Below are positions 6,023 through 12,586 of a DNA stretch of 42,356 nt, piece by piece (positions within the stretch are counted from its first letter, which is position 1; each line of letters opens with the position of its first letter). The position numbers and the translations under genes were made by a program. The notes beneath the pieces are model-generated. The model did not search any database. It saw only the letters and a list, made by a program, of their open reading frames with translations, and had not been told where the DNA came from. Source of the DNA: Bacteroidetes bacterium GWA2_32_17 (GTDB lineage Bacteria; Bacteroidota; Bacteroidia; Bacteroidales; GWA2-32-17); NCBI GenBank assembly GCA_001769035.1, contig MENF01000083.1, positions 1-42,356 of the forward strand, given 5' to 3'.

Positions 6023-6808
6023 TTAATACTTTTCTTGAGAAGTTGCACCCGTAACAATTGCAACGCTTGCACCACAGCCCAAGCGGTTTGCTCCGGCATT
6101 AATTAATGCAATTGCCTGCTCATAATTTTTGATACCACCGCTTGCTTTAACTCCCATTTTTGTTCCAACTATTCGCCTCATTAATGCAACATCCTGAACA
6201 GTTGCACCATGTCCCGAAAATCCTGTACAGGTTTTTACAAAATTAGCATCGGCTTTTTTAGATATTTCGCAAGCTAATATTTTTTCTTCTTCGGTAAGCA
6301 AGCCGGTTTCAATAATAACTTTAAGGACAGTGTTACTGCGGCATGCACGTTTAATTGTTCTAATATCTTCTTCAACTAATTTTAATTCACGCGATTTTAA
6401 AGCTCCTACATTAATTACCATATCAATTTCGTTTGCTCCGTTTGATATAGCTGTTCTAGCTTCAAATGCTTTGCTTCTGCTGTCCATTTCGCCTAATGGG
6501 AAGCCAATAACTGAGCAAATTAGAATTCCCGAACCTCTTAGTTTTTTAGCAACAAAAGGTACCCACGAAGAGTTAACACATACTGATTTGAATTTGTAGG
6601 TACGTGCTTCGTCGCATAATTTTTCAAACTGCGATTTTACAGCTTCGGGTTTTAATAAAGTATGGTCAATATAACCTGCTAACTCAAGTGCTGTCATTTG
6701 CTTTGCATTTTTAGATAATTCAGACTTATTATCTTGTTCTTTCATTTTTTCATTTAATCGTGCCATTACTTCTTTAGTGATTTTATCAATCATTTCGTTA
6801 TGTTCCAT
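6023..6808 (-). CDS. deoC: BMC-targeted deoxyribose-phosphate aldolase
   Basis: Class I aldolase cleaving 2-deoxyribose-5-phosphate to acetaldehyde and glyceraldehyde-3-phosphate. In 261 residues the TIM barrel starts near 38. Active-site residues are visible: D129 in EIDMVINVG, the Schiff-base lysine K192 in FVKTCTGF, and K221 in GVKASGGI. About 37 extra residues precede the barrel; MIDKITKEVMARLNEKM is a short amphipathic helix followed by a polar linker, as in encapsulation peptides that direct enzymes into microcompartments. It is the last gene of the BMC operon and converges on the AAA+ gene with a 17-base gap. Cargo status is inferred from the extension and the context. Confidence 0.93.
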   Translation of the reverse strand: MEHNEMIDKITKEVMARLNEKMKEQDNKSELSKNAKQMTALELAGYIDHTLLKPEAVKSQFEKLCDEARTYKFKSVCVNSSWVPFVAKKLRGSGILICSVIGFPLGEMDSRSKAFEARTAISNGANEIDMVINVGALKSRELKLVEEDIRTIKRACRSNTVLKVIIETGLLTEEEKILACEISKKADANFVKTCTGFSGHGATVQDVALMRRIVGTKMGVKASGGIKNYEQAIALINAGANRLGCGASVAIVTGATSQEKY

Positions 6809-7147
6809 ATTAATTATTCTATATTTATTATTTAAAAAAGTTTATTGTTCTTTACGAAATACGAATTATACGAATGTACAAATAAAATATTGTTTCATCG
6901 TTCTATGTTCAAAAAAGTTTATTGTTCTATGTTCATTGTTAATATAGTCATACATTGTCATTCAGTAGTCATACTTTGTCATTCAGTTGTTTTTATTGCT
7001 ATTGTATGACCATTGTTTGACAATTGTGTGACTATTGTTTTTGTTGTTCATTGTTCACTGTTCGTGGTATTTAATACTTTGTACTTTATTTCTATTTATT
7101 TCGAGCAATTTCTATATATTGTTTATCATTCCCTCTATACTTAATAC
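6809..7147. repeat. 339-base low-complexity spacer inside the BMC operon
   Basis: No gene is supported here. The sequence consists of reiterated words: AAAAAAGTTTATTGTTC occurs at about 6835 and 6909, and CATACTTTGTCATTCAG-type units recur from 6950 to 7010. Further TTGTTCATTGTTCACTG words follow. It separates rpiB from deoC, although both are on the same strand, so deoC may be less tightly coupled to the rest of the operon. Confidence 0.55.
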
Positions 7148-7645
7148 TCATCTTTCTCTCTCAATAGCCATCATTTTATTTATTCTTTGCAAATGTCTTC
7201 CACCTTCGAAACGTGTTTCGAGCCATAGTTTAGCCATTGTACACAATTCAAGGGAAGAATGTTGATTTGTGCCCATTGTTAAAACATTTGCATTATTATG
7301 TTCGCGGCTGTTTTGTATTGTTTTTTCGCTCCAGCATAAAGCAGCTCTTATTCCTTTAACTTTATTGCAAACCATACATGAGCCAATTCCTGCTGCATCA
7401 AGCATTATACCTCTGTCACACTCACCGGATACTACTTTTTTGGAAACGGTATATGCGAAATCGGGGTAATCAACTTTTGTTATATTGTTATCAGTACCAA
7501 CATCAATAACATTATATCCAATACTTTGTAAATATGTTTTAAGCATTTCTTTTGAATCAAAAGAGCCATGGTCAGCACCAATAGCAATTCTTTTAACTTG
7601 TGCAGCATTATTTATTTTGTCGGCATAAGAAATATTATCTGACAT
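7148..7645 (-). CDS. rpiB: RpiB-family sugar-phosphate isomerase with Asp at the Cys position
   Basis: A 165-residue RpiB/LacAB-family isomerase, expected to interconvert ribose-5-phosphate and ribulose-5-phosphate or a related pair. Recognisable elements are IGADHGSF (D25/H26), DYPDFA, H116 in SREHNNANVL, and GGRHLQRI near the C terminus. In E. coli RpiB the catalytic base is a Cys in ILICGTG; here the aligned segment is IMLDAAG with Asp83. About 16 extra residues precede the usual start (VKRIAIGADH) and could be a weak targeting tag. Its place between pentamer genes and deoC marks the BMC as acting on sugar phosphates. Confidence 0.9.
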   Translation of the reverse strand: MSDNISYADKINNAAQVKRIAIGADHGSFDSKEMLKTYLQSIGYNVIDVGTDNNITKVDYPDFAYTVSKKVVSGECDRGIMLDAAGIGSCMVCNKVKGIRAALCWSEKTIQNSREHNNANVLTMGTNQHSSLELCTMAKLWLETRFEGGRHLQRINKMMAIERER

Positions 7646-7656
7646 ATTTTAATATA

Positions 7657-7926
7657 TTAAATTGATATTTCATCAACAATTCCGGCAATTACGGTTCTGA
7701 TAGTGAAAGTATCGGGCTCGTTAATTATTTCTCTTGCCGAATTACCTTCTTCAAGAACAAGCACAGTGTCTCCAACTCCAGCTTGTACTGCATCAATTGC
7801 AAGAAATGATGTTCCATTATTATTTCTCAAAAAATCTATAGGTTGAACAACCATAATTTTTTTCGATTCGTAACCTTTGGCTTTAATTGTTGAGACTATA
7901 TTTCCTATTACTTTTGCAAGTATCAT
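7657..7926 (-). CDS. BMC vertex protein, EutN/CcmL family (copy 4)
   Basis: An 89-residue EutN/CcmL pentamer-forming protein that caps the vertices of a polyhedral shell. It has the family start MILAKVIGNIVSTIKA, the central VQAGVGDTVLVLEEGNSAR segment and the closing VIAGIVDEISI strand. It is the shortest and most canonical of the four copies in this operon. It lies 11 bases upstream of rpiB, so the two are probably co-translated. The 54 bases between it and the next pentamer gene are low-complexity words. Confidence 0.92.
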   Translation of the reverse strand: MILAKVIGNIVSTIKAKGYESKKIMVVQPIDFLRNNNGTSFLAIDAVQAGVGDTVLVLEEGNSAREIINEPDTFTIRTVIAGIVDEISI

Positions 7927-7980
7927 TATTGTTTATTGTTTGAAAAAGTTCTATGTTCAAAAATGTTCATTATACTTTGT

Positions 7981-8304
7981 TTATTGCCTATTGTTTTTGA
8001 TTTTGGAATTTGGGTTTTGTAATTTGGGGTTTGTTTTTTGTTCAATGTCCATTTCGTCAACAATGCCCATAATTGCAGCATCGCAGGGGTTCATTAAAGT
8101 TTCAAGAATTCTGCTTGCTTCTCTACTTGTTTCATAATATATTAACCCGCCAACTCCCGATTGAATTGTATCAACAGCAACAATTGCATTGCCAACATTA
8201 TTCAATTTCTCATCAAGTGGCTGAACAAGCATTAATTTTAAACCCTCAAAAGATTCTACTTTTACGGTGCTTACTACACGTCCTATTACTCTGCCTAGTT
8301 TCAT
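7981..8304 (-). CDS. BMC vertex protein, EutN/CcmL family (copy 3) with extra tail
   Basis: A EutN/CcmL vertex protein of 107 residues; the fold ends near MGIVDEMDI, around residue 89. The last 18 residues or so (QKTNPKLQNPNSKIKNNRQ) are polar and repetitive. They are encoded by the kind of low-complexity sequence that fills the spacers of this operon, so the tail looks like a recent read-through into spacer DNA, not a conserved domain. The start MKLGRVIGRVVSTVKV is canonical. The ATG lies immediately beside the repeat flank of the four-helix-bundle gene, so its native upstream region has probably been replaced. Confidence 0.9.
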   Translation of the reverse strand: MKLGRVIGRVVSTVKVESFEGLKLMLVQPLDEKLNNVGNAIVAVDTIQSGVGGLIYYETSREASRILETLMNPCDAAIMGIVDEMDIEQKTNPKLQNPNSKIKNNRQ

Positions 8305-8310
8305 ATTTTT

Positions 8311-8337
8311 ATCAGTAATCAGTTATCGGTAATCAGT
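8311..8337. repeat. Inverted flank of the four-helix-bundle gene (3' side)
   Basis: This is built from reiterated TAATCAGT words. Its reverse complement supplies the last codons and stop of the four-helix-bundle gene (C terminus KLITDN). It is an imperfect inverted match to 8737-8766. Confidence 0.5.
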
Positions 8338-8717
8338 TTGGAGTTATTACAAAATTTATCTGCTTTAGCAATCATAGAAAATAACATTTTACCGACTAAA
8401 GCATATTTTTCACAAAAATAACAAGAAATTTCTTGAGAAATATATTTGCAATCAAATGATGTTTCAATCCAATGCTGGGTTTCTAACTGTTCTCCATCAG
8501 CATCTGTTAATTTGCTAATAAAATGTTTTTCATATTTTCTTTTTGCCCAAGATTCAGCAATTTGAGATCCTACTGAGCGAGATGATCTTCTTATTTGGTC
8601 AGTAAGCGAATATTTTTCTTCTTTTGAAAAATTATTAGTTAATTCAAAAATCTCAAGAGAAAGTTTTCTTGATAATTTATAAACTTCTAAATCTCTATAA
8701 CTTTTTACATAATCCAT
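8319..8717 (-). CDS. S23/four-helix-bundle protein inserted in the BMC operon
   Basis: A 132-residue protein of the four-helix-bundle family related to the protein encoded in 23S rRNA intervening sequences. Visible marks are SYRDLEVYKLSRKL, SLTDQIRRSSRSVGSQIAESW and KLTDADGEQLETQHWIE. It is all alpha-helical with no signal. Family function is unclear; relatives include the accessory protein of diversity-generating retroelements. It splits the aldehyde dehydrogenase gene from the third pentamer gene and has no known BMC role. Its flanks carry inverted copies of TAATCAGT words, and one of them encodes its C terminus. I read it as a small inserted unit, not as operon core. Confidence 0.88.
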   Translation of the reverse strand: MDYVKSYRDLEVYKLSRKLSLEIFELTNNFSKEEKYSLTDQIRRSSRSVGSQIAESWAKRKYEKHFISKLTDADGEQLETQHWIETSFDCKYISQEISCYFCEKYALVGKMLFSMIAKADKFCNNSKLITDN

Positions 8718-8736
8718 TTTCTTAAATTTTTTAAAT

Positions 8737-8766
8737 ACTGATTACAAATTACCATTTACTGATTAC
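8737..8766. repeat. Inverted flank of the four-helix-bundle gene (5' side)
   Basis: ACTGATTAC and related ATTACCATTTACTGATTAC words upstream of the gene mirror the TAATCAGT words at 8311-8337. Together they bound a segment of about 455 bases with imperfect inverted ends. Confidence 0.5.
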
Positions 8767-8768
8767 TT

Positions 8769-10184
8769 TTAAATTATTCTGAGATAATCAACAAGTGTAC
8801 ACCTTCTTTCTCTTGTAAAAGTTCTTGCTCTTGTAACGCCTTCGCCTGTTGGACTTGCTATAGTAAATGAAGCAAATCCTGCTCCGCCAAATCCTAAACC
8901 TGCATAACTCGGTCCATTCTTAATAAATATTGAACAATTCATAACTTTAGCCATTTTGCTAAGTTTTGCAATATTTAATGAGTACATCATGGCAGTATGT
9001 CTGAATCCGTGTTCACAATCTACAGCCAAATCAATAGCTGCATCAACATCTTTAACTCTGACAATTGGCATAACAGGCATAAGTTGTTCTGTCCAAACCA
9101 AAGGGTGATTTTTATCTACTTCGCAAATTAATAAACGGGTAGATGAAGGCACATTTAAACCAATTCCTTTTGCTATAAAATCGGCATTTTTACCAACAAA
9201 ATTTTTATTTGCAGCACCTTCGTGTCCTGGTCCTCCAGGGTCAGAAATTACTAATTCTGTGATTTGTTTTATCTGGTTGTCTGTTAGTTCATAAGCACCA
9301 TTTTTTTTCATTTCTTCTTTTAATTGAGCGGCTACCGATTCAACAACTATTACTTCTTTTTCGCAAATACAAATCACATTATTATCGAAACTTGCACCAT
9401 CAACAATATCTTTAGCAGCTTTAGTGATGTTTGCAGTTTCATCAACAACAACAGGAGGGTTCCCGGGACCAGCGGCAATAACTTTTTTACCGCTGTTCAT
9501 AGCAGCTTTTACAACTGCTGGGCCTCCTGTAACAACCATTATTGCAATTTTTTTATGACACATTAATTCTTTAGCCGATTCAATTGTTGGTTCATCAATA
9601 CAAGAAATTAAATTAACAGGACCGCCTGCTTCAATAATAGCAGTATTTAACAAACTAATAAGTGATGCAGAAACTTTTTTTGCCGATGGATGTGGATTAA
9701 AAACGACTGCATTACCGGCAGCAAGCATTCCTATTGCATTGCATATAATTGTAACTACAGGATTTGTGCTCGGTGTTATTGCACCGATAACTCCATAAGG
9801 AGCTCTTTCAACAAGAGTTAGTCCATGATCGTCAGTAAATGCTTCTGATACAATGTCTTCTACGCCGGGGGTTTTATTAATTCCAAGTTCATTTTTTAAT
9901 ACTTTGTTTTCCCATCGTCCCATGCCTGTTTCTTCGTGTGCCATTTTCGACAGAATTTCATTATATTCCATAGAAATTTTCCGTATATTGGCAATGAGCT
10001 TCTTTCTGATTTCTAACGATATTTTTGAAAATTCTTTGAAAGCTATATCTGAAGCTTCAACAGCATTATTCAAATTTGAAAATACTCCAAGTTTTTTTTC
10101 ATTATTTACATTTGTTGAAGTAAGATTCATGCTTTTAATAACTTCTTCAACTAATTTTCTTACATTTTGTTCTGTATAATCCAT
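8769..10184 (-). CDS. CoA-acylating aldehyde dehydrogenase, BMC type
   Basis: A 471-residue EutE/PduP-type enzyme oxidising an aldehyde to acyl-CoA with NAD+. With DeoC in the operon the likely substrate is acetaldehyde, giving acetyl-CoA. The catalytic loop FDNNVICICEKE contains Cys272, aligned with the PduP nucleophile, plus an unusual second Cys274. Other family marks are APYGVIGAITPSTNP, NAVVFNPHPSAK, VVTGGPAVVKAAM and SPTGEGVTRARTF near the C terminus. Residues 4-20 form a short amphipathic helix (EQNVRKLVEEVIKSMNL) followed by a linker, a typical encapsulation peptide. It lies 14 bases after the single BMC-T gene. No alcohol dehydrogenase or phosphotransacylase accompanies it. Confidence 0.95.
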   Translation of the reverse strand: MDYTEQNVRKLVEEVIKSMNLTSTNVNNEKKLGVFSNLNNAVEASDIAFKEFSKISLEIRKKLIANIRKISMEYNEILSKMAHEETGMGRWENKVLKNELGINKTPGVEDIVSEAFTDDHGLTLVERAPYGVIGAITPSTNPVVTIICNAIGMLAAGNAVVFNPHPSAKKVSASLISLLNTAIIEAGGPVNLISCIDEPTIESAKELMCHKKIAIMVVTGGPAVVKAAMNSGKKVIAAGPGNPPVVVDETANITKAAKDIVDGASFDNNVICICEKEVIVVESVAAQLKEEMKKNGAYELTDNQIKQITELVISDPGGPGHEGAANKNFVGKNADFIAKGIGLNVPSSTRLLICEVDKNHPLVWTEQLMPVMPIVRVKDVDAAIDLAVDCEHGFRHTAMMYSLNIAKLSKMAKVMNCSIFIKNGPSYAGLGFGGAGFASFTIASPTGEGVTRARTFTRERRCTLVDYLRII

Positions 10185-10198
10185 TTTAAATTCTCAAA

Positions 10199-10750
10199 TT
10201 ACATAAAAAACTGTTTTATTTCAATATGTGGTTGTGGAATAATTACGTCTTTGCACAATTGATTTTTTTCTTTAACTTTTGCAGTAGCAACATTCATTGC
10301 TGCCTCAACTGCATCTAATGTACCCATCATTTTCACGTACGATTTTCCACCAAAGCCAATAGCAAGTCTTATTTCGATAATTTTCACATTTCCTGTTTTG
10401 GCAGCTATATCGCCTGCTTCGATACTTGACGCTACTGATAATGTTTCAATTATACCAATTGCATTCCAATCTGTAGTTTTAATAATATTCCCTATAGCAG
10501 GAACAATATCCTGATGAACCATTGGTAAATATAAGTTGTCAACTAAATAATCTTTTCCTGTTTCAGAACCCATTTTAAATGAATATTCTACAGAAGCAAC
10601 ATCGCCACTAAAAACAATAATATATTTTCCGGGACAAATAGTTCTTGCTTCAATGATTTTAATTTGTGCAATTTTTACCATATCATCAAGAGCTTTTATG
10701 CCAATTGCAATGCTACTAAACTCTAAAACGCCTAAAACAGTTGTTGTCAT
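10199..10750 (-). CDS. Trimeric BMC shell protein, single-layer type (BMC-T)
   Basis: A 183-residue tandem-BMC-domain protein that forms pseudohexameric trimers in the shell facets. Domain 1 covers about 5-90 (LGVLEFSSIAIGIKALDDMVK, pore loop near CPGKYI). Domain 2 covers about 96-180 (AIGIIETLSVASSIEAGDIAAK, pore loop near GFGGKSYVK). It resembles the single-stacking BMC-T1 type rather than the double-stacking type encoded elsewhere in the operon. Such proteins are thought to form substrate or cofactor pores. The gene precedes the aldehyde dehydrogenase by 14 bases. Confidence 0.92.
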   Translation of the reverse strand: MTTTVLGVLEFSSIAIGIKALDDMVKIAQIKIIEARTICPGKYIIVFSGDVASVEYSFKMGSETGKDYLVDNLYLPMVHQDIVPAIGNIIKTTDWNAIGIIETLSVASSIEAGDIAAKTGNVKIIEIRLAIGFGGKSYVKMMGTLDAVEAAMNVATAKVKEKNQLCKDVIIPQPHIEIKQFFM

Positions 10751-10975
10751 TTAAAAATATTATTACTATTCAACTTCAAAAGTAAATATAAATTGCTTCA
10801 TGTTTATTGTCATACATTGTCATACAATAGTTAACACATTGTCATACTTTGTAATTCATTGTTTATTGTTTCATTATTATTTAACCATTTAGCAATTTAA
10901 CAATTTAACAATGAAACATTTTTAAAATTTGATATAATCTGTGGCTTAAAAGAACAGAGGCTTAATAGTAACAAA
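10751..10975. repeat. 225-base low-complexity spacer in the BMC operon
   Basis: No gene is seen. Repeated ATTGTCATAC words fill about 10805-10860 and ACAATTTAAC-type words follow to about 10920. The style matches the spacer at 6809-7147. Confidence 0.5.
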
Positions 10976-11263
10976 TTATTTCTTATAAACTATTTTTTCG
11001 TTTTCATCAATTAAATCAATAATTCCAATTATTATTGCGTCAACTGGTTTATTAACTGTTACCGGAGTTTCTCTGGCTGAAGTGCTTTCTGCAACAAATA
11101 CGAGCTCATCATTGCCGGCTCCAATTAAATCAAGAGCAACTAAATAGTCTCCTTTTTTTTCTCCTGATTGATTGCATTTTTCCAATAAAAGGTACTTTGA
11201 ACCTTTGATGCTGTCATTTTTGACAGTACTAACAATTGTTCCAACAACTTTTGCCAAGAGCAT
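10976..11263 (-). CDS. BMC vertex protein, EutN/CcmL family (copy 2)
   Basis: A 95-residue EutN/CcmL pentamer protein: start MLLAKVVGTIVSTVKN, central LDLIGAGNDELVFVAESTSAR, closing strand DAIIIGIIDLIDE. It is 5 bases from the preceding copy, so the two are probably translated together as a pair. It differs from its neighbour throughout, so this is an old duplication; mixed or alternative vertices are possible. Confidence 0.92.
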   Translation of the reverse strand: MLLAKVVGTIVSTVKNDSIKGSKYLLLEKCNQSGEKKGDYLVALDLIGAGNDELVFVAESTSARETPVTVNKPVDAIIIGIIDLIDENEKIVYKK

Positions 11264-11268
11264 TTTTC

Positions 11269-11562
11269 TTAATCTTTTTGATATGTATATTTACCATCTT
11301 TTTCGATAAAATCAACTATTGCAATAATAGCAGAATCGGTTGGTTTGCCTTCTGTTACATTTGTAAATCTTGCACCGCTTCCCGAAACGTAAAATACAAT
11401 TTCGCCAATTCCTGCTCCAACACTGTCCATTGAAACTACAAAATCATTTTTCCCTTTCATAGTTACAGGGTCAATTTTCTCTAACAGAAGAAGTTTGATT
11501 CCTTCCATTTTCTGAGCCTTTTGAGTAGCTACTACCGTTCCAATAACTTTTGCTAAAATCAT
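11269..11562 (-). CDS. BMC vertex protein, EutN/CcmL family (copy 1)
   Basis: A 97-residue EutN/CcmL pentamer protein: start MILAKVIGTVVATQKAQ, central MDSVGAGIGEIVFYVSGSGAR, closing AIIAIVDFIEKDGKYTYQ. It follows the second BMC-H gene after an 81-base spacer with a long palindrome (11593-11628). It is the first of four vertex genes in the operon. Confidence 0.92.
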   Translation of the reverse strand: MILAKVIGTVVATQKAQKMEGIKLLLLEKIDPVTMKGKNDFVVSMDSVGAGIGEIVFYVSGSGARFTNVTEGKPTDSAIIAIVDFIEKDGKYTYQKD

Positions 11563-11592
11563 CTAAAGATAATTAATTGTATTAATGTGTTT

Positions 11593-11628
11593 ATGTGTTC
11601 ACGTTAACATATGTAAACATGAACACAT
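11593..11628. repeat. 36-base intercistronic palindrome
   Basis: ATGTGTTCACGTTAACAT (11593-11610) is followed directly by an arm that pairs with it at 16 of 18 positions (11611-11628). It lies between the second BMC-H gene and the first pentamer gene. As RNA it could form a hairpin that protects or processes the shell-protein message; no T-tract follows, so a terminator is unlikely. Confidence 0.55.
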
Positions 11629-11643
11629 CAGCACAATAAAATA

Positions 11644-11943
11644 TTATTTTTTTGAACTTACCCTGCCTAAAGGCAATGCTGAGTCAACATTACTATGTGG
11701 TCGTGGAATTACGTGAGTTGATACAATTTCCCCGACTTTTTCGGCTGCACGGGTTCCTGCATCAACGGCAGCTCTAACAGCGGCAACATCACCTCTAACT
11801 ATTGCAGTAACATAACCACCACCAATTTTTTCGTAACCAATAAGTTCAACTTTTGCAGCTTTTACCATTGCATCCGATGCTTCAACCATTGCAACAAAGC
11901 CCCTTGTTTCAATCATTCCTAATGCTTCACTGTTATCATTCAT
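11644..11943 (-). CDS. Hexameric BMC shell protein (BMC-H), copy 2
   Basis: A 99-residue Pfam BMC-domain protein forming hexameric facets. Landmarks are [20 protein letters not shown], the pore loop KIGGGY and the C-terminal [14 protein letters not shown]. The start is set at 11943 because GGAGG (11951-11955) lies 7 bases upstream; an ATG at 11994 would give 17 extra residues overlapping the BMC-T gene. It differs from the first BMC-H of the operon at 7 of about 86 aligned residues, so it is a recent duplicate. The clear Shine-Dalgarno site is unusual in this window. Confidence 0.93.
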
Positions 11944-11950
11944 AATTTTT

Positions 11951-11955
11951 CCTCC
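11951..11955 (-). promoter_or_regulatory. Strong Shine-Dalgarno site for BMC-H copy 2
   Basis: The minus strand reads GGAGG, 7 bases before the ATG at 11943. It decides the start of this gene. Few other genes in the window have such a site. Confidence 0.6.
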
Positions 11956-11965
11956 GTTATTTTTA

Positions 11966-12586
11966 TTAATATTCTTTTCTTCCTGTAATTTCATTTAAAC
12001 GTTTTTCTACAATTGTTTTAGCTTCTAACACTTCGGCTTCTTCGCCGGCAATATAAACCCTGCCAAATTTACCAAATCCGTTAACTTCAATAATATTGAT
12101 TCTTGCAGCTTTTTCGGCTTCATTTGCAGCATAATAAGCGTATCCTGCAGGTTCTACTTCAAGAATAAACAATGTGTCGCCTCTTAATATCATGTTACCA
12201 TATCTTACTCTATTAATAAGTTGGGCATGATGGTCTTCAACATTTTTAATTAGTTGACTTGTAAGTATTCTTGGGCAAAGCCTGTCTTCTTCTTTTTTCT
12301 CAATTGCATTAAGTACTGCTTGTCCAGCCATTCGGGTATCACCTTGACTGTCGGAATGTACTTCGAGCATTCCATAAGCTCTTTCTACTATTTGCATACC
12401 GGGAGTTACATGTGTAGCTTTTAATGCAACATCAGTTAACTTATTAATTTCGATACCTGGTGCAATTTCAATTACGCAACAAGATTGTCCGCCAACAGGA
12501 AGATATCCTCTTGATACTGTTGAAAGATACGATGCCATTTGAAGTTGTAATGAATCTAAAAAAACATAAGTTCTTAAATCAACCAT
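11966..12586 (-). CDS. Trimeric BMC shell protein, double-stacking type (BMC-T)
   Basis: A 206-residue tandem-domain shell protein. The N terminus ([37 protein letters not shown]) and [18 protein letters not shown] resemble the BMC-T group that stacks as two trimers with a gated pore, such as the T2/T3 proteins of Haliangium. The second domain includes [19 protein letters not shown] and [17 protein letters not shown]. Stacked trimers are thought to admit large substrates or cofactors. It lies 2 bases after the first BMC-H gene and has a weak AAAGGA site upstream. Confidence 0.92.

Follow-up and report, generated by a model that had tools for sequence, protein, structure and literature searches.

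A gene of the S23 family between inverted arms of seven-nucleotide words in a bacterial microcompartment operon: a probable small mobile unit akin to the S23-encoding intervening sequences of 23S rRNA

The stretch of DNA analysed here, referred to as the window, comprises 42,356 nucleotides, contig MENF01000083.1 of Bacteroidetes bacterium GWA2_32_17, and belongs to a draft genome of 4.77 Mb in 234 contigs (G000). Profile searches place in it a bacterial microcompartment (BMC) operon, the minus-strand genes at 6023–12586, which encodes DeoC, RpiB, four EutN/CcmL shell vertex proteins, an EutE-type aldehyde dehydrogenase and PduT-like and CcmP-like shell proteins. Between the aldehyde dehydrogenase gene on one side and a EutN gene on the other lies a small gene, the subject of this report, whose product of 132 aa the first-pass annotation, made from the letters alone, had assigned to the family of proteins encoded by 23S rRNA intervening sequences (IVSs). 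This assignment is borne out by the match of the protein to PF05635 (104.3 bits, E 4.9e-30, cut-off 33.8) and to TIGR02436 (S23, 23S rRNA intervening-sequence protein; 92.6 bits, cut-off 24).

The S23 gene is enclosed by repeated words. The word TAATCAGT occurs five times in the window as compared with 1.93 expected, a count reached by 1 of 100 shuffles, and four of the five copies flank the gene, two in each orientation (8316 and 8330 on the plus strand, 8737 and 8758 on the minus strand); the opposite orientation of the words on the two flanks had been seen in the first-pass annotation. They are part of inverted arms, 8308–8358 and 8723–8773, which are 73% complementary over 51 nt, and both arms have a period of 7 nt, for which the lag-7 agreement given in Table 1 was not equalled in 2000 single-base shuffles of either arm. 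The protein ends in ...NNSKLITDN, and its last codons (KLITDN) and the stop codon do sit inside one of the arms, which thus overlaps the 3′ end of the gene, again as annotated. When the upstream 150 nt were compared with the reverse complement of the downstream flank, the window copy (locus L007, window 6879–10196) obtained an inverted-flank score of 27, matched by 1 of 100 shuffles; its signal is real but modest. The two arms contain 3 and 2 units of the heptad GTRNNCR, which is discussed below.

Table 1. Features of the S23 unit and its surroundings in the window
Feature	Coordinates	Strand	Remarks
Whole unit	8305–8768	-	464 nt, from the EutN start codon to the aldehyde dehydrogenase stop codon
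S23 / four-helix-bundle gene, 132 aa	8319–8717	-	Open reading frame (ORF) and profile matches
5′ arm, gene sense (GTAATCAGTAAATGGTAATTTGTAATCAGTA)	8736–8766	-	Lag-7 identity 18/26, measured over 8736–8768
3′ arm, gene sense (ACTGATTACCGATAACTGATTACTGATAAA)	8308–8337	-	Covers the last S23 codons and stop; lag-7 identity 17/23
Upstream operon neighbour, EutE/PRK15398-type aldehyde dehydrogenase	8769–10184	-	Stop codon 8769–8771
Downstream operon neighbour, EutN/CcmL shell vertex protein, 107 aa, PF03319	7981–8304	-	Start at 8304; end enters the next array
Gene-less period-7 array, EutN–EutN junction	7977–8051	.	Next junction after the S23 unit

The first-pass annotation had proposed to look for an empty site in the same operon of related genomes. 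With the enzyme as query, 16 of 393 genomes of the order gave a match (E <= 1e-100), namely the window's own and 15 others; at the level of the class only the window's own genome did so among 395 (E <= 1e-120), and among the 10 genomes of the family only G000 and its sister G001 (E <= 1e-100). Empty sites do exist: five of the 15 order-level relatives (L247–L251) have a short, AT-rich spacer of 8–13 nt, with no array and no S23 gene. At the same junction, L239 has 40 nt of AATTTGA-like words and lacks S23, L242, L243 and L246 have longer word-bearing spacers, likewise devoid of S23, L241 has an S23 gene of the same clade, whose product is identical to that of L058, and L244 has a different S23 protein (PF05635), 28% identical to that of the window and encoded between inverted GTGTTAA-type words. 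The remaining four are uninformative, L240 being at a contig end and L245, L252 and L253 in another context. In G001, words follow the enzyme gene and an assembly gap then covers the rest of the junction. Two further loci, L057 and L058, which were found through the S23 protein search, are filled at this junction. The BMC junction is thus polymorphic among relatives: the gene is not a constant feature of the site with unrelated flanks, and the flanks, although they vary, do so within a word family. Moreover, the window S23 protein is 78% identical to that of L055, at an unrelated site, versus 70–71% to those of L057 and L058 at its own site, and the neighbours of L058 in a tree are L074 and L083, both located at other sites (99/88). 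Since the S23 copies at the BMC junction are not each other's closest kin, this hints at, without proving, repeated insertion at one junction.

Within the genus, three more sites vary in the same manner. Between two enoyl-CoA hydratase genes, S23 is present in G002 and G000, and 59–60 nt separate the aligned blocks in G003 and G004, whose flanks are 89–91% identical to those of G002. Behind the isocitrate/isopropylmalate dehydrogenase gene, the S23 unit is found in G003 alone; its flanks there (L030) are also alike in the same direction (direct score 65, inverted 29). A REP-like hairpin, TCATTCTGAGCGAAGCGAAGAATCT...GACTTCGCTCAGGGT, was seen in L138 and L139 (G002 and G004), in the spacer where G003 has the S23 unit. 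Between carA and carB, the S23 gene of G003 has TTAGACACTTTAGTC-type arms, a second one, present in G004 and G002 and encoding a protein 36–43% identical to that of G003, has AATTTG-type arms, and G000 has 44 nt between the aligned blocks. The flanks of this site are 79–93% identical between genomes, and therefore the gene and both its arms have been exchanged together. In two Bacteroidota pairs S23 is flipped at a shared site (L070/L107, flanks 84–93% identical, the L107 copy being frameshifted near its start; L061/L064, 74–79%), and in one metagenome-assembled genome two copies, L067 and L072, are 92.9% identical over 524 nt at unrelated sites. We also considered, and dropped, the possibility that the Pedobacter unit L062 interrupts an RND efflux gene: the two halves are apart in 13 compared loci too, separated by 22–281 nt, mostly with stop codons and without S23. 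This pair being naturally split, L062 is merely another site that lacks S23 elsewhere.

The family search yielded 19 S23 matches in the window's genome and matches in 9 of the 10 family genomes, and a protein search yielded 62 named loci in Bacteroidota, Verrucomicrobiota, Chloroflexota, Planctomycetota and other groups. Flanks could be scored in 104 of 107 loci, three having too short a flank: 61 named copies (the window's clade), 18 from the window's own genome and 25 from the family, some of them relatives at the same site and therefore not independent. All 100 shuffles were beaten by 46 of the 61 named copies, by 7 of the 18 and by 7 of the 25; among 225 control ORFs of the same loci, shuffled 20 times each, 23 beat all 20. 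After removal of four controls that turned out to be S23 homologues, an inverted score of at least 30, which we call strong, was found for 59 of the 104 S23 copies as compared with 6 of 221 non-S23 genes (Fisher p 4e-29). In the window's clade the inverted score exceeded the direct one in 54 of 61 copies, with 42 inverted and 4 direct scores of at least 30. Among named copies the flanks have periods of 7, 14 and 21; the peaks are at 7 and 14 for own-genome copies and at 7 and 8 for family copies. Period-7 arrays numbered 70 in 93.7 kb near S23 versus 38 in 516.5 kb elsewhere in 102 loci, a tenfold density, with at least one beside the S23 gene in 49 of them. Genes that are badly delimited or broken (L097, L090, L107, L115 and L116, sometimes also L013, L046 and L047) are excluded from the array counts and from the Mantel, orientation, C-terminus, GTRNNCR, tree and strand-asymmetry counts.

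The first-pass annotation had proposed to test other copies of the family for conserved TAATCAGT flanks and terminal LITD residues, and neither proved to be conserved. A fixed TAATCAGT terminal repeat is rejected, as other S23 proteins have other words and the words vary even within the clade; TAATCAGT exemplifies a degenerate heptad array, approximately GTRNNCR, of a single S23 clade. Of 58 window-clade copies, 36 have at least three such units in each arm and in the expected orientation, and 2 have them in the reverse orientation, as compared with 3 of 221 controls; the unit was derived by reading the same arms in which it was then counted. The S23 C termini differ freely between copies, and the LITD residues reflect only the point at which the frame enters the array; the arm as aligned overlaps the S23 coding end in 31 of the 67 copies that score at least 28. 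Word similarity does increase with protein identity (Mantel rho 0.29, 0 of 999 permutations; 97 copies, 89 related-flank pairs excluded), and the two arms of a copy match each other above the average of other copies' arms in 14 of 18 own-genome, 22 of 25 family and 48 of 61 named copies. The suggestion of a mobile unit with ends that extend into the gene thus largely survives, given the empty junctions, the inverted word family shared by related copies and the frequent overlap; what has to be given up are the fixed TAATCAGT ends, which are replaced by period-7 arrays that differ by clade.

The protein itself is maintained. In nine same-site pairs with finite values dN/dS is 0.03–0.21, it is 0.26 for L029/L031 (48% identical) and 0.38–0.58 for the carA–carB swap pairs; 17 pairs were tried, of which five gave no finite value, and several of the dS values are saturated. 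The low ratios in same-site pairs indicate that the S23 protein is under purifying selection. Solved structural relatives are 2rld and 2gsc. In the paper on the Coxiella IVS (PMC4990558), the function of S23/IVP proteins is stated as unknown and the Xanthomonas S23 protein is stated to be a pentamer.

How the window unit relates to the rRNA IVS is clarified by an Rfam scan of 10 loci, in which the sole rRNA match was to the Azospirillum locus L170, within 23S rRNA (RF02541, 1698.8 bits). L170 encodes a PF05635 protein between inverted arms of GACGGAT/GACAGAG-type (GAC(A/G)GAN) heptads. Since the scan gave no rRNA match at L007, the window unit is IVS-like and not an rRNA IVS; since L170, a true rRNA IVS, has the same layout, the window unit appears to work like one outside rRNA. 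Indeed, it combines an S23 ORF between complementary inverted ends with heptamer repeats beside the ORF. The Coxiella IVS is described as 428 nt long, with a 28-bp terminal stem, excision by RNase III and, ahead of the S23 frame, GACAGAT heptamers in tandem (PMC4990558). The window unit, of comparable length, thus shares with the Coxiella, Leptospira and L170 IVSs the protein family and the complementary inverted ends, and with those of Coxiella and L170 the heptamers, but it lies between protein genes and has another word. It differs from the Coxiella IVS also in the selection on S23, as the Coxiella ORF is reported to be under reductive evolution and probably unexpressed (PMC4990558). In a survey of the candidate phyla radiation (CPR), 23S_rRNA_IVP ORFs, which belong to the same protein family, are dispersed over several insertion sites of 16S and 23S rRNA, but in rRNA only, and the terms 'inverted repeat' and 'heptamer' are absent from its main text (PMC11270868). 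Among the titles, abstracts and passages of the open-licence PMC papers listed by our searches, we found none that joins S23 genes outside rRNA to heptad arms.

The intergenic tandem period of 7 nt makes the window arms heptameric and STRR-like; the STRR repeats of cyanobacteria belong with the heptameric intergenic repeats. Such repeats in Xanthomonas and Nostoc resemble the window arms as 7-nt tandem words in spacers that include inverted pairs (70 cases in Xcc), but they are treated as G-quadruplex sequences generally not found with mobile elements; they have no accepted origin, and 'S23' and 'XCC0516' are absent from the main text of the paper (PMC4692102). Among 25 plasmid records with an S23 match, nine cyanobacterial ones were inspected by eye; eight have inverted word arms and one (L165) has same-direction words. 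Tyrosine recombinase or phage integrase genes adjoin S23 units that have inverted words on plasmids of Nostoc, Tolypothrix and Calothrix (L163, L164, L167, L161 and L162). A search of phage records gave one weak match.

A second family, GxxExxY (TIGR04256/PF13366), shares the armed layout. Like S23 units, these are single small genes with inverted word arms in several copies per genome, but their proteins are unrelated to S23 and their words are others (CACAGAG, CGCAAAG). Of 31 matches, 23 were scored, fragments and one match without a locus being excluded, and 12 of the 23 copies in the family beat all 100 shuffles (loci L171–L199); the gene is multi-copy in the genus. Two of the six non-S23 controls with strong inverted flanks are GxxExxY proteins, and three more belong to a single array cluster (L094). 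The BMC junction of L242 has gene-less CTCTGTG and CACAGAG arms, words of the GxxExxY type, back to back. GxxExxY occurs in two papers of the open-licence PMC literature; one of them, PMC8934634, names it once, as a gene reported beside a reverse transcriptase.

Taken together, the window unit is probably a small mobile unit, consisting of a heptad-word arm, the S23 gene and the inverted arm, which lies directly behind the aldehyde dehydrogenase stop codon and is of the same kind as the S23-encoding 23S rRNA IVS. Several observations weigh against this interpretation. Strong scores are lacking in 45 of the 104 S23 copies, among them the window copy, which falls just under the threshold. Outside the window's clade, scores of at least 30 are inverted in 7 and direct in 6 of the 18 own-genome copies, and inverted in 10 and direct in 8 of the 25 family copies; word arrays around S23 genes are thus general and their mirror orientation is less so. 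Several copies outside the window's clade, for example L008, L018 and L039, have same-direction arrays on both sides, with direct scores of 59, 86 and 65. The arms of a copy beat those of a same-site relative in just 12 of 17 pairs. Gene-less arrays with the same words are common and dispersed in these genomes, so the arrays may precede the gene. The spacers that lack S23 at the isocitrate dehydrogenase site hold other sequence (136, 147 and 185 nt in G002, G004 and G000). No constant target duplication or outer end could be resolved for heptad-armed units at the compared sites, and S23 is the only ORF of at least 80 aa within 8305–8768, where no transposase or other catalytic gene is found. 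Recent transfer between phyla was not shown for the Bacteroidota copies in a tree of 57 S23 copies, and is not claimed, because these copies form one group (98/84). Selection for RNA pairing, sought in 70 units by mismatch strand asymmetry and duplex energies, gave no signal: an RNA stem should favour mismatches that form G–U pairs on the sense strand, and the trend was the opposite, with 63 sense-compatible versus 86 antisense-compatible mismatches (p 0.07). The window transcript does fold with its arms paired, but unremarkably (z -1.24; 9 of 100 shuffles as stable); for L057 the fold has a z of -4.46.

If the unit is mobile, how it moves can be sketched as follows. Among the 45 named loci with enough flank, both neighbours run along S23 in 35 and against it in 3, the upstream one along and the downstream one against in 6 and the reverse in 1; among the 38 loci whose neighbours are codirectional, S23 therefore runs with its host in 35 (p 7e-8; mechanical ORFs served as neighbours, and this set does not contain the flipped copies L064 and L107). 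Expression by read-through from the host operon, the unit having no promoter of its own, would explain this bias. The inverted arms may pair, either as a hairpin of single-stranded DNA or as an RNA stem, and the paired structure would mark the ends and be bound by the S23 ring protein; a ring of five subunits could bind tandem heptads. Strand exchange, the weakest step of this scheme, would be carried out by a recombinase or replication enzyme supplied in trans, as no catalytic gene is present within the unit. Arms can stay matched despite drift of the words if entire heptads slip and if the template is switched between the quasi-palindromic arms, as may be the case here. With no signal of selection for RNA pairing and an unremarkable fold in the window, a DNA hairpin served by enzymes in trans is our first choice over an RNA route or a conventional transposase, at low confidence, as a possible route rather than a probable one.

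An RNA route, in which the arms form a transcript stem, RNase III frees the loop and reverse transcription in trans lets the unit spread, with S23 acting in the manner of Avd, seems unlikely on the evidence just given for mismatches and fold, and S23 is again the sole ORF of its size in the unit. What commends it, besides the predicted terminal stems, the orientation bias and the RNase III excision of the Coxiella IVS (PMC4990558), is the kinship of the S23 profile to Avd of diversity-generating retroelements; the window protein itself stays below the cut-offs (29.8 of 80 bits for Avd, 30.2 of 40 for bAvd), and the L057 protein clears the latter with 41.9 bits. No more probable is it that the arrays came first, arising and spreading alone by slippage and by recombination between dispersed arrays, with S23 entering later by homologous recombination at words in common and the arms as its landing site. 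This would fit the dispersed gene-less arrays, the 40-nt array at the BMC junction of L239, the single word-like stretch, GAATTTGGAAATG, in the carA–carB spacer of G000 and the frequency of same-direction arrays outside the window's clade, as well as a gene-less word array at the next junction, between the two EutN genes, of L057 (L057 1716–1828). It fails to account for five BMC junctions of 8–13 nt without any array, for words that track the S23 protein across unrelated sites and for the joint change of gene and both flanks at carA–carB; nor would a single prior array yield arms that are mostly inverted, as they are in the window's clade. The EutN–EutN junction is free of inserts in L058 and L021, and in the window its gene-less array overlaps the C-terminal end of the 107-aa EutN protein.

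We consider it less likely still that the unit is a non-autonomous cassette, like a miniature inverted-repeat transposable element (MITE), moved by an ordinary transposase. Unlike insertion sequences (ISs), the window unit has no transposase gene, and unlike ISs and MITEs, S23 units have no constant terminal inverted repeat, their words differing between groups and varying within the clade; nor could constant outer ends or a target duplication be made out for heptad-armed units at the sites examined. The idea draws on one locus of the window's genome, G000:C31 3300–6100 (L201), where a GxxExxY gene is interrupted by a long heptad array, two S23 units in tandem and two copies with internal deletions. 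The outer ends there, as read by eye, mirror each other (GTGT(C)TAACT-GCA), and a TA target site seems to have been duplicated; this is a single case and concerns another S23 subgroup. Finally, in five family genomes, five S23 genes that adjoin tRNA-Pro and/or tRNA-Ser (L011, L053, L035, L036 and L048) share their flanks in pairwise alignment and have arm scores of 26, 21, 20, 18 and 19, reached by 3, 24, 27, 67 and 17 of 100 shuffles. These are possibly settled, non-mobile S23 genes, nearly armless and stable in place, and they are what one would expect of an ordinary operon gene that is inherited vertically and whose flanks are terminator-like or due to chance. For the armed copies this explanation is already contradicted by the empty and exchanged junctions and by the flank statistics and the period of 7, and it is very improbable.

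It is tempting to speculate beyond the window, and we do so tentatively, that S23 proteins are sequence-specific readers of heptad arrays, the ring protein of each clade binding its own 7-nt word, perhaps with one heptad per subunit. Armed S23 units would then be one widespread class of mobile element, of which rRNA IVSs, many orphan 'four helix bundle protein' genes and many heptameric intergenic repeats, including those of cyanobacteria, may be the rRNA-borne, operon-borne and gene-less forms, and GxxExxY would be a second gene family with such arms. The function of S23 and the origin of heptameric repeats would thereby be linked through a unit that is visible as present, absent, flipped and exchanged at defined sites, and both questions would become direct tests, namely whether the protein binds its own word and what moves the unit. 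The rRNA intervening sequence would in turn become one variant of an element that can also reside in the spacers between protein genes.
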